Positions 13,791 through 24,020 of a DNA stretch of 59,681 nt are shown here, piece by piece. Every line of letters starts with the position of its first letter. Position 1 is the stretch's first letter. The position numbers were made by a program, and so were the translations under genes. Location: NCBI RefSeq assembly GCF_028330965.1, contig NZ_JAQMUB010000024.1:1-59681 (forward strand). Reading direction: 5' to 3'. The stretch is from Oscillatoria sp. CS-180. Its GTDB lineage: Bacteria; Cyanobacteriota; Cyanobacteriia; Phormidesmidales; Phormidesmidaceae. The notes under the pieces are model-generated. The model was not told the origin of the DNA. It made no database searches and saw nothing but the letters and a program-made list of their open reading frames with translations.

Positions 13791-14207
13791 CTAGTCAGTT
13801 GAGCTTAACCAATTAGTCACTTGCTGTATCAAGCGCTCTCCCGATTGAATAGCGGACTCCGCTTCAGAGCGGGTAAAGGCTTCCGATGGCGTCAGCTCAG
13901 CCAGTGCGTCGGGATAGCGTGTCGGAATATAAAGCTTATCCAGTGCCAGAGCAGTGTCCATCAGGACTAAAAAATCTTTCTTTACAGGATCAGGTAGGTC
14001 ACGAATTAGCCGACCGCAGGAATGACCCCAGGGGTCGAGATCTAGCCGAAACCAGACTGCCTTGAGTGCTTTTTCAGCGGCCTGTTGAGCATAGAAACAG
14101 GCTTGAGGATATTTGCTGGCTGTCAATAACGCAGTAGCAGCCTCTAGGTCGTCAATCCCCTGTTGATGCCATCGTTGAGCTTCCCGCCGAAGCTTTTCCA
14201 CGCTCAT
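13791..14207 (-). CDS. HEPN-domain protein paired with the MNT nucleotidyltransferase
   Basis: This is a 138-residue four-helix HEPN-domain protein (PF05168 type). The signature RRWHQQGIDDLEAA-like N-terminus (here AQRWHQQGIDDLEAATALL), ACFYAQQAAEKALKA and YIPTRYPDA are all family landmarks. The RNase motif R-x4-6-H of toxic HEPN proteins is not seen; the nearest candidate has the wrong spacing. Toxic RNase activity is therefore doubtful, and substrate binding or regulation is also possible. The gene overlaps the 3' end of the upstream nucleotidyltransferase gene by 56 bp in another frame and has a good AAGGA Shine-Dalgarno inside that gene, so the two are co-translated. The ATG at 14207 is well supported. 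Confidence 0.85.
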   Translation of the reverse strand: MSVEKLRREAQRWHQQGIDDLEAATALLTASKYPQACFYAQQAAEKALKAVWFRLDLDPWGHSCGRLIRDLPDPVKKDFLVLMDTALALDKLYIPTRYPDALAELTPSEAFTRSEAESAIQSGERLIQQVTNWLSSTD

Positions 14208-14514
14208 AGAGAACTTTTCCTTCTGACAAAATCTGTTGGATGAAGGGGCGATCGCGTCTTTGAGTCAACTCGTCTGGAGTGTACACTATCACCTCGACTG
14301 GATAAGGGGCATCAGCAAGCAGAGCCAGTACTTGACTGATGCGGTCTAGCGGCGACAGATTACAGGCCCAAACTACAAATAAATCAATATCAGAATGACG
14401 AGTTGCTGTTCCCCGCGCCCAGGAACCAAACAGAAGGATTTGCTCTGGGTCTAAAGCCTGTTGCAATTTCTTCACCGCATAGCCGAGCCAAATCTCAGTG
14501 GATTGAGGAGTCAT
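14152..14514 (-). CDS. Minimal nucleotidyltransferase (MNT domain), partner of HEPN protein
   Basis: This is a 120-residue MNT-type nucleotidyltransferase. The catalytic signature LLFGSWARGTATRHSDIDLFVVW gives GSxARG followed by DID, the two metal-binding Asp residues of the pol-beta superfamily. In characterised MNT/HEPN systems the MNT protein AMPylates and neutralises its HEPN partner; whether that holds here is inferred. It is the first gene of a two-gene unit, and the 56-bp overlap with the HEPN gene means its last residues are encoded within the overlap. It starts at ATG 14514. Confidence 0.85.
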   Translation of the reverse strand: MTPQSTEIWLGYAVKKLQQALDPEQILLFGSWARGTATRHSDIDLFVVWACNLSPLDRISQVLALLADAPYPVEVIVYTPDELTQRRDRPFIQQILSEGKVLYERGKASAGSSTMASTGD

Positions 14515-18494: not shown

Positions 18495-18500
18495 AAGGAG
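18495..18500 (+). promoter_or_regulatory. Ribosome binding site fixing the start of the ubiquitin-fusion protein
   Basis: AAGGAG lies 12 nt before ATG 18513, and part of the spacer is a HIP1 octamer. It supports a protein that begins directly with MQIFVK, so the ubiquitin fold is the true N-terminus with no signal peptide ahead of it. Confidence 0.7.
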
Positions 18501-18512
18501 CGATCGCGAGCC

Positions 18513-21500
18513 ATGCAGATTTTCGTGAAAATTTCTACTGGCAAAACGATAGCGTTAGCAGCTAATTCTAATGACACGATCAACAGCATTAAGGTCAAAA
18601 TTCGCGACCAAGAGGGGATTCCCCTTGAGGAACAGACGCTACTTTTTGCTGATGAAATCCTGGAAGACGAACGCTCGCTCGCTGATTACACCATTCCGCT
18701 AGCGTCTACGCTGCGTTTAGAAACCATCCAGACGGTCAGCGCCCTGAATGAGGCAACTGCCAGCATCTTTATTAACGAGGCAGACGCGGATACTCCCGGT
18801 AGTGACGCGGCAGAGTTTACGGAACTTTATGATGGTGGTGTCGGTAATACTCCTCTAGATGGCCTCGCGATTGTTTTCTTTAACGGTACGGATGATGCCT
18901 CCTACGAAGCGTTTGACTTGGATGGCTTCAGCACAGACGCCGATGGCTTTTTCGTTTTAGGGAATCCGGGTGTCGCCAACGTAGATCTGACCTTTGATCC
19001 GGGTGGAACGGGTAGTCTGCAAAATGGGGCTGATGCGATCGCCCTCTATCGGGCAGACGCTATCGACTTTCCCAACGACACCCCGGTCACCACAACCGGA
19101 CTGCTTGACGCGATCATTTACGGTACCGGAGATGTAGATGATGCTGGATTGTTGGCAGGTCTGGGGCAGTCTACACAGTTTGATGAAAACGCCAATGGCA
19201 ATCAAAGCGATGAGTCAAATAGTCGGGTTCCAGACGGTACGGGACCTTTTCAGACTCAAGCGCCAACCCCTGGCACAGCCAACAGCGTTACCAATACGGC
19301 TAATGAGGTTCCAGTCACTGCCGATAGCCAAATCGTTCTCACCGAAGATACCGTCTACACCTTCAGTAGTAGCAATTTTCCCTTTGCAGATACGGATAGC
19401 GGCGACACTCTACAAGTCGTCCGCATTACTGCACTCCCCTCTGTAGGACAGCTTTTTATTGATGCTGATGGCAGCGGTACACCCAGTGGCAGCGAGGCGG
19501 TTGTTCAGAATCAGGAGATTGCGATCGCTGAGATTGCCCAACTTAAGTTTGTACCCGCAGCCGACGCTAGTGGCGCAGACTACACCAGCCTGCAATTCCA
19601 AGTCAGTGATGGGACTGACGTTAGCGCCGTTGCAACGCTGACCATTGATGTCACTCCCGTTAATGATGCTCCAGCAATCTCTGGTAGTGCTGTCTTCGAT
19701 CCTATTGACGAAGATACTGTTGATGCCCTCAACACAGGTACTCCGGTGCTTGACCTTGTCGGAGTTTCAGTTTCTGATCCCGACATTTCCAATGCTCAAC
19801 CGACAGGCATTGCGGTCACTGGCGCTGACACTGCCAACGGAACGTGGCAGTACTCTACGGAAGGGGATATCTGGCAGGATTTGGGTCCAGTTTCAGACAG
19901 CAATGCCGTTCTTTTGGGACCAACGGGCCTCTACACCGCTCTGTCCAATAGTGCGCCCGATACTCAAAACTGGCTGTCTTACACAGCAGTCAATCTTGCG
20001 AATCCCTTCGGCACAGCAGCAACTGAGACCGTCAATGCTAGCGGCACGACTCTGGACACGACCAACGATCAAAACATCTATGCCGGCTATGGCAACTACG
20101 CCGCGAATCCTTCTAATCCCACCTTTGTCAACGCTGACTTTCCTACGCTAGACAACACCCTGGGCTATCAGATTGCCTTCGACATGCAGCTCTTGGAGGA
20201 ATCTGGCACCAACCCCAATCGGGCTGGCTTTAGCATTCTTGCCGTCAGTGAAGATACAACCAAGGCGATCGAACTCGGTTTTCAAAAGACCTCTGAAACG
20301 ACAGGGAATATCTTTGCTCAAAGCGACAATCCACTTTTTACAGCCGCAGAGGCGGTTGCTTTCGACACGAATCCAGCGACTCGCTATACTTTGTCCGTAA
20401 AAAATGATAGCTATCAGCTCTTTGCAAATGGGCTTCCTATTCTTTCCGGTGTCCTTCGAGATTACACCGCGTTTTCTCCACCGCAAGGGGTACCGGATCC
20501 CTATGAGTTGCCTAATCTTGTCTTTTTAGGAGACAACACAACGTCGGCTCAAAGCAGCTTTCTGCTAAGCCAAGTCGCTGTGACGACCGATACTCGGATC
20601 CGCTTTGTCCCCAATGCTGACTATAGCGGTGATTCAACGCTAACGTTTCGGGCCTGGGATACTTCGGATAGAGTTGCTAACGGGCAAACGGTCGATGCGT
20701 CTGTCAACGGAGGCGCGACCGCGCTGAGTGCTGATGCGATCGCAGGCACCCTCACTGTTAATCCTATCAACGACTCGCCGTCCTTCACTGCTAGCAATCC
20801 TCCCACCGTTGAAGAAAACAGCGGTCTGGTGACGGTGGAGAACTGGGCAAGCTTTGCTGCGGGCGGTGGCGTAGATGAAGCGACTCAGACAGCAACCTAT
20901 GTGATCAGCAATATTTCAGACAGTAACCTGTTTGTGGTTGCTCCAAGTGTTGATACTGACGGCAATCTGACCTATACGCTGGCAGAGGATATTTCTGGCA
21001 CGTCTACTTTTGAAGTTGCCGTGCAGGACAGCGGCAGTGGAGCTAACTTGTCCGAGTCTCAGACCTTCACCATTACTGTCAGTGAAGAAGAGGTTCCAGG
21101 CTTTACTTTTACCAAAACGACTGCGACTGTCAGCGAAGCCGGCGATACCGACACTTACCGGGTAGCGCTGACGTCCCAACCTACCGCTGATGTTGTCCTC
21201 ACGTTTGACGGTGGGGACGAGTTAGTCACCCCTGAAACTATCACGTTCGTTCCCAACGAGTGGGGGCAGCAGCAAACTATTACAGTCGCCGCCATTGACG
21301 ATTCTGACGTAGAGGGTGACCACACAGGCACGATCAGCCACAGCGCGAGTAGCAACGATCCAAACTATAACGGCATTGCGATCGCTCCCATCACCGTTGA
21401 TATCTCTGATAACGATGCTAGCCGTGAACGGCCTGCATCTCTCATCTTTACCTTTGAGCAGTTCGTTCGATATCAGGTGATCAACAAAGGCGGCAGTTTG

Positions 21501-22310
21501 CCTTTCAGCGAGACTCTATATTTGTTGGCCAATCCTGATGTCCAGGCTGCTGTGAATCAAGGATTGATTGCGAATGGATTCCAACATTTCAGTCAGTTTG
21601 GTGCTGTAGAGGGACGCCCCACGCTGCCGCTTGATCTAGAAGTCGGTGGACTCAAACTAGCAGCTCTGTTTGACGAAACCAACTACCTCAGCCAATATTC
21701 TGACGTTGCCGATGCTGTTGTCCAAGGTTTCTTCAACAGCGGTTTTGATCACTTCGTTCAAGCAGGCTTAACAGAAGGACGTAATCCTAGCGACTACTAT
21801 GATGAGGCGTTTTATCTAGACCATAACTCCGATGTTGAAACTGCTATTGACGACGGCCTATTTAGTAGTGGGTTAGTCCACTACCTAACAATTGGTCACA
21901 TCGAAAATCGAACGGCCAGTGAATTGTTCGATCCTCAAGACTATCTGCTCAACAACGACGGCATTCAGGCCGCGATCGCTAACGGCACCTTTGATAGCGC
22001 TTTCGATCATCTCATCGAATTTGGTGCTGAGGAGGGTAGGCTCCCGATCTTGCTGTTTGAAGAGGCATTCTATCTATCGCAGAACCCTGATGTTGCTGAG
22101 GCTGTCGTCAAGGGTGACTTTGATTCCGGTTTTGATCACTACGTCAGTGTAGGGCAGCGAGAAGTGCGAAACTCCAGTGCGGCGTTCAATGAAAGGGCTT
22201 ACCTTGAGGCCTATCCAGATGTTGCAGCGGCTGTGTCAAACGGAGATTTCTCTAGCGGCATGGAGCATTTCTTCCGCGCCGGACGTGCTGAAGGGCGACT
22301 ACTGGGATAA
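18513..22310 (+). CDS. Ubiquitin-like domain fused to lamin-tail/cadherin-like/Calx-beta-like repeat exoprotein
   Basis: This is a 1265-residue modular protein. Residues 1-72 align without gaps to eukaryotic ubiquitin, starting MQIFVK, with 39 of 72 positions identical by my hand count. Lys6, 11, 27 and 29 are kept. Lys33, 48 and 63 and most of the Leu8/Ile44/Val70 patch are altered, and the LRLRGG tail is absent, so conjugation is unlikely. Next come a lamin-tail-like domain (about 82-255), a cadherin-like domain ending VTPVNDAP (about 262-387), and a second such domain interrupted by a region of about 220 residues (about 470-690). A further domain (about 757-857) and a Calx-beta-like repeat (about 862-970) follow. 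The C-terminus has six repeats of about 44 residues, of the type YLxxNPDVAxAV...EGR (about 996-1265). There is no N-terminal signal peptide or membrane segment; type I export or a surface role is inferred. Function is unknown. Confidence 0.88.
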   Translation: MQIFVKISTGKTIALAANSNDTINSIKVKIRDQEGIPLEEQTLLFADEILEDERSLADYTIPLASTLRLETIQTVSALNEATASIFINEADADTPGSDAAEFTELYDGGVGNTPLDGLAIVFFNGTDDASYEAFDLDGFSTDADGFFVLGNPGVANVDLTFDPGGTGSLQNGADAIALYRADAIDFPNDTPVTTTGLLDAIIYGTGDVDDAGLLAGLGQSTQFDENANGNQSDESNSRVPDGTGPFQTQAPTPGTANSVTNTANEVPVTADSQIVLTEDTVYTFSSSNFPFADTDSGDTLQVVRITALPSVGQLFIDADGSGTPSGSEAVVQNQEIAIAEIAQLKFVPAADASGADYTSLQFQVSDGTDVSAVATLTIDVTPVNDAPAISGSAVFDPIDEDTVDALNTGTPVLDLVGVSVSDPDISNAQPTGIAVTGADTANGTWQYSTEGDIWQDLGPVSDSNAVLLGPTGLYTALSNSAPDTQNWLSYTAVNLANPFGTAATETVNASGTTLDTTNDQNIYAGYGNYAANPSNPTFVNADFPTLDNTLGYQIAFDMQLLEESGTNPNRAGFSILAVSEDTTKAIELGFQKTSETTGNIFAQSDNPLFTAAEAVAFDTNPATRYTLSVKNDSYQLFANGLPILSGVLRDYTAFSPPQGVPDPYELPNLVFLGDNTTSAQSSFLLSQVAVTTDTRIRFVPNADYSGDSTLTFRAWDTSDRVANGQTVDASVNGGATALSADAIAGTLTVNPINDSPSFTASNPPTVEENSGLVTVENWASFAAGGGVDEATQTATYVISNISDSNLFVVAPSVDTDGNLTYTLAEDISGTSTFEVAVQDSGSGANLSESQTFTITVSEEEVPGFTFTKTTATVSEAGDTDTYRVALTSQPTADVVLTFDGGDELVTPETITFVPNEWGQQQTITVAAIDDSDVEGDHTGTISHSASSNDPNYNGIAIAPITVDISDNDASRERPASLIFTFEQFVRYQVINKGGSLPFSETLYLLANPDVQAAVNQGLIANGFQHFSQFGAVEGRPTLPLDLEVGGLKLAALFDETNYLSQYSDVADAVVQGFFNSGFDHFVQAGLTEGRNPSDYYDEAFYLDHNSDVETAIDDGLFSSGLVHYLTIGHIENRTASELFDPQDYLLNNDGIQAAIANGTFDSAFDHLIEFGAEEGRLPILLFEEAFYLSQNPDVAEAVVKGDFDSGFDHYVSVGQREVRNSSAAFNERAYLEAYPDVAAAVSNGDFSSGMEHFFRAGRAEGRLLG

Positions 22311-22326: not shown

Positions 22327-23682
22327 CTATTCTGTATCGGTTGCCGAGTCTCGACCAAAGGTCAAATTGTCCAATGTTTGTCCCGGCGGCAGATCTACAA
22401 AGACCAGATCACCTTCTTCAACGCCCTCTAAGATCTGGATCTGATTGCCAGCTTGAGACCCCAATGTCACCGGTTTAAAGCGAATGCGATCGCGTTCACC
22501 CGGCACCAAAACACCGGACTGCCCTTCTTGCGTCACAATCGCCACAGTGGGAACAACCAATGCATCACTGAGTTGGTCGCCAATAAAGGCCACGGTGACA
22601 TTCATGTTGGAGCGAAGAACATCTTGACCCGAGAGTAACTCAACTCTGACTTGGAATAACGTCACATTTTGACGCTCGATTGCTTCAGGAGCTATCAGTC
22701 GCACAGTGCCTTCAAAGACTTCATCGGGGAAAGCATCGGCGACAATCTCAACCGCTTGGCCTGGACGGATTCGAGCAATATCGGCTTCCGGCACATCAGC
22801 GACAATCTCCAGTTCGCTGGCGATCGCTACAATGGCCGTTGAGGTTGCGGAAGTCGCGTCAGAAGCTGATGTCGTTGGCGTTACCACAGCTCCCTCATTG
22901 GCAAACTTTTGAGTCACGATACCGGAAAAAGGAGCGCGGATACGAGTGTCACCCAACTGCACCCGAGTGGACTCTAACTGAGCTTGAGCCTGAGCTAATC
23001 GTGCTTCCGCTTGAGCAATTTCTTCAGGACGAGCACCGTCTTGCAAATCGGCTAGTCGCTGTTCAGTTTCCTCTGCTTGAAACCGAGCACTTTCCAGACT
23101 GGCCTCTGCACTTCGAACGGCTTGGACAAAGTTATCTAACTCGTTGTCTGAAATTGCTCCAGCAGCTTCTAGCTGCCGATTACGGTCGAGTTCTGCTATG
23201 GCAAGGTCGAGTCGGGCTTCTAAATCCTCGACCTGTGCGTTGGCGGCTTGCACGGCGGCTTCTGCCTGAGCAATTTCCTCCCTGTCAGCGCCTCTAATAA
23301 CATCAGCTAGCTGGGCCTCAGTCTCAGCGACCGCTGCCTCCCGTAACCGAATCTGGGTCTCGATGTCATCGCTCTCCATTTGCGCAATGAGCTGTCCCTC
23401 CGTCACGCGATCGCCCTGCTCTACGTACAATTCCTCTAAAATGCCTGATGTCTCAGGACTCAAATTCACTGTCTGAATTGGCTCTACGGTTCCACTTGCT
23501 GTAATCCGCACTGTCAGGGCAGTTGCCTCCACAGGCACCGTCAGCGCTTCGACATCATAAGGAGTTCCCCGAGTACGACTAACCACAAACGAGATCGCAC
23601 CCAGGCCAACGATGCCGACAGCCATGAAACCCAGTAGCCAGATAAATGGACGGCGAACCTTGCCAAAAAGCGGAATCTGCAT
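22327..23682 (-). CDS. HlyD/RND-type periplasmic adaptor (membrane fusion protein)
   Basis: This is the periplasmic adaptor subunit of a tripartite efflux or secretion pump. I start it at the ATG giving MQIPLFGKVRRPF, which places the membrane anchor (FIWLLGFMAVGIVGLGAISFVV) at the N-terminus. The 48 extra residues of the longer frame do not look like coding sequence. The lipoyl half-motifs (GILEELYVEQGDRVTEGQLIA, then TRIRAPFSGIVTQKFANEGAVV) flank a long Ala/Glu/Gln-rich coiled-coil hairpin (about 90-250). The beta-barrel and membrane-proximal domains follow. No inner-membrane pump or ATPase gene is adjacent, so the partner is elsewhere. It converges on the ubiquitin-fusion gene with only 16 bp between stop codons; a role in exporting that protein is possible but unproven. 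Confidence 0.85.
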   Translation of the reverse strand: MQIPLFGKVRRPFIWLLGFMAVGIVGLGAISFVVSRTRGTPYDVEALTVPVEATALTVRITASGTVEPIQTVNLSPETSGILEELYVEQGDRVTEGQLIAQMESDDIETQIRLREAAVAETEAQLADVIRGADREEIAQAEAAVQAANAQVEDLEARLDLAIAELDRNRQLEAAGAISDNELDNFVQAVRSAEASLESARFQAEETEQRLADLQDGARPEEIAQAEARLAQAQAQLESTRVQLGDTRIRAPFSGIVTQKFANEGAVVTPTTSASDATSATSTAIVAIASELEIVADVPEADIARIRPGQAVEIVADAFPDEVFEGTVRLIAPEAIERQNVTLFQVRVELLSGQDVLRSNMNVTVAFIGDQLSDALVVPTVAIVTQEGQSGVLVPGERDRIRFKPVTLGSQAGNQIQILEGVEEGDLVFVDLPPGQTLDNLTFGRDSATDTE

Positions 23683-24020
23683 GAACAGAATGAAGCGAGG
23701 GTTAAGTACTTTTCCACTATAGCGACGGGACGAGCGCACGAACGAATAAATGACCGAGTGGGTGAGTAAACATGGAGGATGGATGGGTCGCCTCCCTTTA
23801 GGAGCAAAAAAATGGGAAGGATTCAACCTTTGCTGCTGGACTCGTTGATTGATTGTCCATTTCCAGCTAAATTTTGCTCACAGTGTTGAAAGATATAGTG
23901 CAGTTGCCCCAAAATATTCTCCAGTTCACTGATGGAATACAACAGGGTTTCATATCCTTGCCTATAAGAGTAGAAAGCAAATTTCCTGACTCAGACCAAC
24001 TACAGCTATAGAGTTACAGG

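Follow-up and report, generated by a model that had tools for sequence, protein, structure and literature searches.

The window, a stretch of 59,681 nucleotides that forms one whole contig (59.7 kb) of the 6.5-Mb genome of Oscillatoria sp. CS-180, encodes a large protein whose first domain is a genuine homologue of ubiquitin, the textbook signal of eukaryotic cells. This domain is followed in the same ORF by a lamin-tail-like domain, a cadherin-like domain, a choice-of-anchor Y domain and C-terminal repeats (Table 1). The reading favoured here, with moderate confidence, is that of an exported-type, adhesin-like protein in which a domesticated ubiquitin would act as an N-terminal binding head and not as a conjugated tag.

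Table 1. Features of the ubiquitin-headed gene and of its neighbourhood, in positions of the window
Feature	Position	Strand	Basis or remark
Two small overlapping ORFs	13791..14514	-	
Shine-Dalgarno-like site AGGAG	18496..18500	+	12 bases 5' of the ATG
HIP1 palindrome GCGATCGC	18500..18507	+	directly 5' of the start codon
Ubiquitin-headed ORF, 1265 aa	18513..22310	+	translation; starts MQIFVKISTGKTIALAANSNDTINSIKVKIRDQEGIPLEEQTLLFADEILEDERSLADYTIPLASTLRLETIQ
Ubiquitin domain, residues 1-73, without Gly-Gly	18513..18731	+	PF00240; model; Foldseek
Linker between ubiquitin and lamin-tail-like domain	18732..18755	+	comparison with lamin-tail-like relatives
Lamin-tail-like domain, residues 82-260	18756..19292	+	PF00932, E 3.8e-4 when residues 74-269 were scanned alone, below the Pfam curated cut-off; 71% identity to the closest relative, in genome G058
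Cadherin/Big_9-like domain, residues 264-378	19302..19646	+	PF17892 E 5.6e-7; PF17963 E 7.3e-5
Choice-of-anchor Y domain, residues 523-690	20079..20582	+	NF050052 E 9.3e-56, above cut-off
C-terminal repeat block, units of about 43 aa, 5 matches to the motif	21726..22298	+	
RND/MacA-type periplasmic adaptor, convergent	22327..23826	-	TIGR01730 above cut-off

The profile PF00240 matched residues 3-69 of the full protein (E 9.2e-15) and the isolated residues 1-81 (E 9.8e-17), and its score was 60.9 bits against a curated cut-off of 25.4. Residues 1-72 align without gaps to human ubiquitin with 39 identities (54%), the same count that had been made by hand in a first-pass annotation of this DNA. 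With an E limit of 0.001, a sequence search of the PDB returned 329 distinct sequences, and most of the 60 listed bear the name of ubiquitin, of polyubiquitin or of a ubiquitin-ribosomal fusion. The fold was also recovered: the AlphaFold2 model of residues 1-81 reached a mean pLDDT of 86, and Foldseek listed 50 PDB matches, 49 of them with ubiquitin or Ub in the title, although the model leaned on five ubiquitin-like homologues and is not independent of the sequence match. Many of these matches superimpose with an rmsd of 0.6-0.8 A over about 70 columns; others lie near 3 A, where the disordered tail or the full 81 residues were aligned, and two at 11 A. A single-sequence model of residues 1-269 (mean pLDDT 33) was set aside.

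Identity to human ubiquitin is unevenly distributed. Of 15 positions in the hydrophobic core, 13 are identical, compared to 26 of 57 elsewhere (Fisher p 0.007), and the two changed core residues are V17A and V26I. By contrast, the substitutions L8S, R42T, I44L, G47D, K48E, H68R, V70E and R72I fall among the E1-contact and receptor-patch positions, L8, I44, H68 and V70 forming the patch mostly used by eukaryotic ubiquitin receptors. Lys6, Lys11, Lys27 and Lys29 are retained and the other three lysines replaced (K33Q, K48E, K63L), and the chain passes through I Q T V S at positions 72-76 and continues without a Gly-Gly. With the loss of the latter and the changes at positions 8, 42, 44, 47, 68, 70 and 72, both the receptor patch and the conjugation tail are gone; the fold seems to be maintained, and the surfaces for conjugation and for most eukaryotic receptors seem not to be. 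As Lys48, Lys63, the Gly-Gly and the Ile44 patch are all lost, conjugation or plain mimicry is unlikely. In parallel, no E1, E2 or JAB conjugation genes were recognized by eye among the ORFs neighbouring the gene. The first-pass annotation had thus read the lysines and the absence of a conjugatable tail correctly, and its expectation of a beta-grasp fold was borne out in the model; the lamin-tail-like domain that it named matches below the curated cut-off. Of the two origins that it offered, descent from a eukaryotic gene is graded here as probable, whereas its idea of a mimic of host or predator ubiquitin is weakened by the S, L, R and E found at the four patch positions.

The start of the gene was also as annotated. 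Upstream of the ATG, the 16 codons (NYSQSDIYFYKERSRA) that reach back to an in-frame stop contain no ATG, GTG or TTG, and therefore no Sec signal peptide can precede the ubiquitin. The Shine-Dalgarno site that had been invoked for this start is real, but its spacing is longer than usual.

The ubiquitin is isolated among the relatives of the strain. PF00240 had a single match in its own genome, the window gene, and above cut-off it was found in 1 of 63 genomes of the order (0 of the 62 others), in two genomes out of 388 of the class (that of the window and G402) and in 3 of 386 of the phylum, the third being a genuine case in G063, from another class in which it was the only one of 18; these and the following genome samples overlap. 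Neither a second genuine ubiquitin among the 388 genomes of the class nor a second genome with the window's fusion was found, so the fusion that the first-pass annotation had thought to look for in other cyanobacteria did not appear. The ubiquitin of G402 was rejected as contamination, as it heads an ORF that by eye resembles a ubiquitin protease on a 3.3-kb contig; in this entry, rated 1% contaminated, the small contigs L013 and L017 carry eukaryotic-looking ubiquitin genes. Further matches above cut-off were obtained in 6 of 395 genomes of the phylum of G446 (itself included), in two genomes, G446 and G1189, out of 395 of its class, and in 2 of 86 of the family of G765, both already found; none of 14 control genomes had a match. 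Matches under the cut-off in G237 and G444 (by eye FliD-like flagellar ORFs) and in G1182 (by eye a peptidase-like ORF) were discarded as not being ubiquitin.

Mobile and viral sequences were searched as well, with methods that favour sequences near canonical ubiquitin. By tblastn, two queries returned 1 and 3 plasmid records, corresponding to Ruminococcus albus pRUMAL01, whose protein WP_013483628.1 is already annotated as 'ubiquitin family protein', and to two megaplasmids of Pseudoalteromonas shioyasakiensis; neither query matched the phages collection. Viral contigs gave no match with the window sequence as query and nine loci with the alignment, and a single scan of the genome_contigs set with the diverged window sequence gave one locus. 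Four of the loci (L046, L047, L048 and L052) lie on contigs that look like those of giant viruses or eukaryotes and were used only as eukaryotic-type rows.

Leaving out these four and G402, 16 distinct bacterial or phage ubiquitins were found: those of the window, G063, G446, G639, G765, G689, G762 (two), G565, G1189, R. albus, the two Pseudoalteromonas, L045, L049 (the same gene in L050 and L051) and L053. In 14 of them a hydrophobic stretch with Ala or Ser as its last residue stands immediately before the ubiquitin Met (VHA, ANA, ASA, AQA, LFA, AFS, AFS, VYS, AEA, LFA, ILA, ILA, VAA and AFA), which was judged signal-peptide-like by the hydrophobic stretch and the small end residue; the window and the phage ubiquitin L053 have no hydrophobic leader. 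At L026 there is no upstream ATG, and the start would be GTG or TTG. What stands behind the ubiquitin varies: an autotransporter barrel (G765 and, with Big_3_5, G639), a T9SS tail (G446 and G1189), IPTL-CTERM (L049) or a He_PIG/cadherin-like protein of 2720 aa (Pseudoalteromonas), with stand-alone forms in G762 (twice) and L045. The ubiquitin-headed proteins L026/L027 (autotransporters), L012/L043 (T9SS-tailed), WP_013483628.1 (R. albus) and WP_217877103.1 (Pseudoalteromonas) resemble the window protein in having ubiquitin as the first domain and no Gly-Gly, but they carry signal-peptide-like leaders, absent from the window protein, and other anchors. As the window ubiquitin joins these scattered ubiquitins heading exported-looking bacterial proteins, an extracellular role is likely for it; the first-pass annotation had taken no position on location or kin.

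Several of these loci deserve a separate mention. The contig of L045 (3902-4231) is prophage-like and encodes a signal-peptide-like segment followed by a full ubiquitin ending LRLRGG, the only intact Gly-Gly tail among the 14 exported forms. On a phage-like contig, L053 (4001-4741) encodes a 246-aa protein with ubiquitin first and without signal peptide, whose remainder matched no family at E up to 0.1. The temperate-phage-like IMG/VR contigs L049 (2451-2768), L050 and L051 share a signal-peptide - ubiquitin - IPTL-CTERM gene, and between L049 and L051 the 517 bases around the ubiquitin gene are identical, inside about 1.3 kb of low divergence, whereas over their longest alignment, of 4.4 kb, the two contigs diverge by 8%; this gene is perhaps recently exchanged cargo. 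In G762, L029 (4875-5817) holds two stand-alone signal-peptide ubiquitins in tandem, one of them ending TPPCN, with a near-terminal Cys that resembles the C-terminal Cys reported for BfUbb (PMC3352274).

The relationships of the window ubiquitin were addressed by shared residues and by a tree. In gapless identity counts, which like the derived-residue counts omit L029a, L053, L054 and L055 for their indels, its closest rows are G446 and G1189 (42 of 72 for both), ahead of L049 (41), L045 (40) and the human protein (39). Of its derived residues it has five in common with L012 (G446) and four with L043 (G1189), compared to 0-2 for the eukaryote- or giant-virus-like rows, 1-3 for the other exported rows compared and 3 for NEDD8, bearing in mind that rows more diverged from human ubiquitin have more chances of shared derived residues. 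These counts hint at a kinship with the T9SS-tailed proteins of G446 and G1189. The tree (24 rows, 72 columns) resolved almost nothing, with 1 of 21 inner branches starred, and it joined the window with G1189 weakly (80/41). When the 14 exported rows and the window were forced into one clade, the cost was 12.2 log units (p-AU 0.176), and a clade of the window and the two T9SS-tailed rows gave p-AU 0.44; a single exported clade is thus neither shown nor rejected, and one origin and several are indistinguishable by the tree.

This bears on the strongest of the alternatives, in which ubiquitin was captured directly from a eukaryote (a grazer, an alga or a giant virus) in the window lineage alone and kept as a mimic or decoy for the eukaryotic ubiquitin system, independently of the other bacterial cases. 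The high identity to eukaryotic ubiquitin, the patchy distribution and a tree compatible with several origins would all suit such a capture. However, receptor-patch and E1-contact residues have changed, the two Bacteroidota ubiquitins with T9SS tails have more derived residues in common with the window domain than human- or giant-virus-like rows do, and no route into a eukaryotic cytosol came to notice, so that we regard it as improbable, though the best placed of the rivals.

Nearly as improbable, and slightly behind, is that the ubiquitin has no specific partner and serves only as a structural cap at the N-terminus, or persists as an inert leftover, with the other domains doing the work. Its strongly diverged surface, with 33 of 72 residues changed, speaks for this view, as does the lack of a second genome with the fusion, but the core is preserved in 13 of 15 positions, the ORF is intact, and ubiquitin recurs as the first domain across different exported-looking architectures. 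The Pseudoalteromonas pair (L054, 11908-20070; L055, 11905-21177) also argues against an inert role. Between the two strains the ubiquitin head keeps 62 of 70 residues (dN 0.083, dS 0.673), indicative of purifying selection on it, whereas the 600 residues after the head are only 40% identical and a later stretch of 1942 residues is 87% identical, a pattern that places a variable module mid-protein between a conserved head and the later stretch.

The favoured reading, a displayed binding head, requires that the protein leaves the cell. Its composition resembles that of type I-secreted exoproteins: it lacks a signal peptide, has no Cys at all and is acidic, with 14.2% Asp+Glu vs 2.7% Lys+Arg outside the ubiquitin domain. 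No RTX nonapeptide match (HemolysinCabind) was found in it at E up to 0.1. In the genome, on another contig than the ubiquitin gene, there is an HlyB (TIGR01846, 780.5 bits vs a cut-off of 725.55) with an HlyD beside it that falls about 3 bits under its cut-off (205.2 vs 208.65). The HlyD profile had no match above cut-off over the genome, and it is uninformative on its own because it also matches in 13 of the 14 control genomes.

The C-terminal repeats recur in large proteins of this genome and of the genus's 5 other genomes. Twelve ORFs of the repeat family were read, and 9 of them had a plausible N-terminus, with 0-5 Cys; counting from the first Met, the highest hydrophobicity within their first 40 residues (Kyte-Doolittle scale, 12-residue segments) was 0.49-1.71, below the 1.87-3.09 of the segments before the 14 exported ubiquitins. 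On the other hand, type I secretion can be jammed when a fast-folding domain is fused to the N-terminus; ubiquitin folds fast, and this is counted against a type I export of the window protein. An extracellular location is nevertheless the most likely one, and we infer a type I or similar route from the traits above.

The second domain of the protein was followed with residues 74-260, which found matches in 7 of 60 genomes of the order, including its own. PF00932 was absent from the scan of the full-length protein at E up to 0.1. The closest relative, the protein of G058, has no signal peptide by eye; it carries RTX repeats and an ExeM/NucH-like match whose 209.2 bits stay below the cut-off of 300. 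Four relatives from related cyanobacteria resembling ExeM/NucH nucleases (L065, L067, L069 and L070) share with the window protein the lamin-tail-like domain and the lack of a signal peptide by eye; they have no ubiquitin and carry nuclease matches, with RTX repeats in L065, L069 and L070, whereas the window protein has neither nuclease match nor RTX. The domain is internal in L065, L033, L066 and L068, and it is the first domain in L067, L069 and L070, which begin MA[ST]VFINE.., while the window protein reads ATASIFINE after the linker. As three relatives start with this domain, the likeliest reading of the junction, which is one among others, is that ubiquitin was prepended to a lamin-tail-first exoprotein.

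That the protein stays in the cytosol as a scaffold, with ubiquitin for protein-protein contact, would explain the missing signal peptide, but it is very improbable in view of a Cys-free, acidic cadherin/anchor architecture typical of exoproteins and of the RTX repeats and ExeM/NucH-type nuclease matches in L065, L069 and L070. Finally, a eukaryotic ubiquitin gene joined to a cyanobacterial one by contamination or misassembly, of which G402 is an actual example and for which the ubiquitin-part GC of 0.454, about 2 sd below the 216-base windows of the gene (0.514, sd 0.030), could be cited, is practically negligible, as the first-pass annotation had argued. Against it stand an unbroken ORF within the 59.7-kb contig, an identity to human ubiquitin of no more than 54%, the same GC3 in the ubiquitin part as in the whole gene (0.50) and the HIP1 site next to the start codon. 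That site is one of 75 HIP1 palindromes in the window, a mark of cyanobacterial DNA, and the low GC of the ubiquitin part may come from foreign origin or from its amino-acid make-up.

Returning to the ubiquitin as a binding head, the protein would be exported through a type I or similar system that reads a C-terminal signal, and its anchor and repeat domains would hold it at the surface or in the sheath. There the ubiquitin, compact and stable, would be displayed as a head for binding a partner, either in the matrix or on another cell. The domain itself was probably drawn from the exported bacterial ubiquitins, with an ultimate origin in eukaryotes or giant viruses.

The closest tested analogue is BfUbb (ubb) of Bacteroides fragilis, which is secreted behind a signal peptide, lacks the terminal glycine and inhibits 13 of 40 B. 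fragilis strains, bovine ubiquitin being inactive (PMC5705921), and can bind human E1 in vitro (PMC3352274). Both BfUbb and the window domain are eukaryotic-like bacterial ubiquitins with a missing terminal glycine, but BfUbb is a stand-alone protein of 76 mature residues behind a Sec signal peptide, with 63% identity to human ubiquitin (the paper's figure) vs 54% here, whereas the window ubiquitin heads 1265 residues without one; the extracellular location is demonstrated for BfUbb and deduced for the window protein. Since BfUbb is secreted and inhibits sister strains, a first guess by analogy is that the head may bind an envelope component of competitors, and a second that it may target a protist grazer. 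A different use of the fold is described in PMC1779556, which reports operons of polyUbl, E1, E2 and JAB in bacteria, cyanobacteria included; the window domain shares the ubiquitin-like fold and has no Gly-Gly.

More broadly, an evenly balanced proposition is that these proteins form a class of exo-ubiquitins, a eukaryote-derived, mostly tail-stripped and recurrent extracellular module that plasmids and temperate phages have carried from phylum to phylum, N-terminal on autotransporter, T9SS, IPTL-CTERM, cadherin-like and (in this cyanobacterium) type I-style proteins, and recognising a partner on cells of competitors. Among the titles and abstract openings listed from the open literature on bacterial, secreted or surface ubiquitin, a body that takes in few subscription journals or preprints, none described ubiquitin at the head of autotransporters or of T9SS-tailed or cyanobacterial exoproteins, and 'BfUbb' is absent from the main text of PMC11354881; databases may list such proteins already. 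BfUbb is the bacterial homologue with experiments and has been portrayed as a trait of a single gut species. The window protein extends this theme, and the cases gathered here make exported ubiquitin a comparative subject, in which several phyla and export routes have put one fold to new use, apparently outside the cell. Natural variants that keep the core and have lost the conjugation and receptor surfaces can reveal which surface matters, the target becomes testable by simple binding and competition assays, and the wider class merits a dedicated survey.

Regarding the neighbourhood, the adaptor gene that converges on the ubiquitin-headed ORF was considered as an export partner and discarded, as it does not reach the type I HlyD cut-off and lies in the convergent orientation. 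The two small overlapping ORFs further upstream resemble by eye a HEPN/nucleotidyltransferase (MNT) toxin-antitoxin pair.
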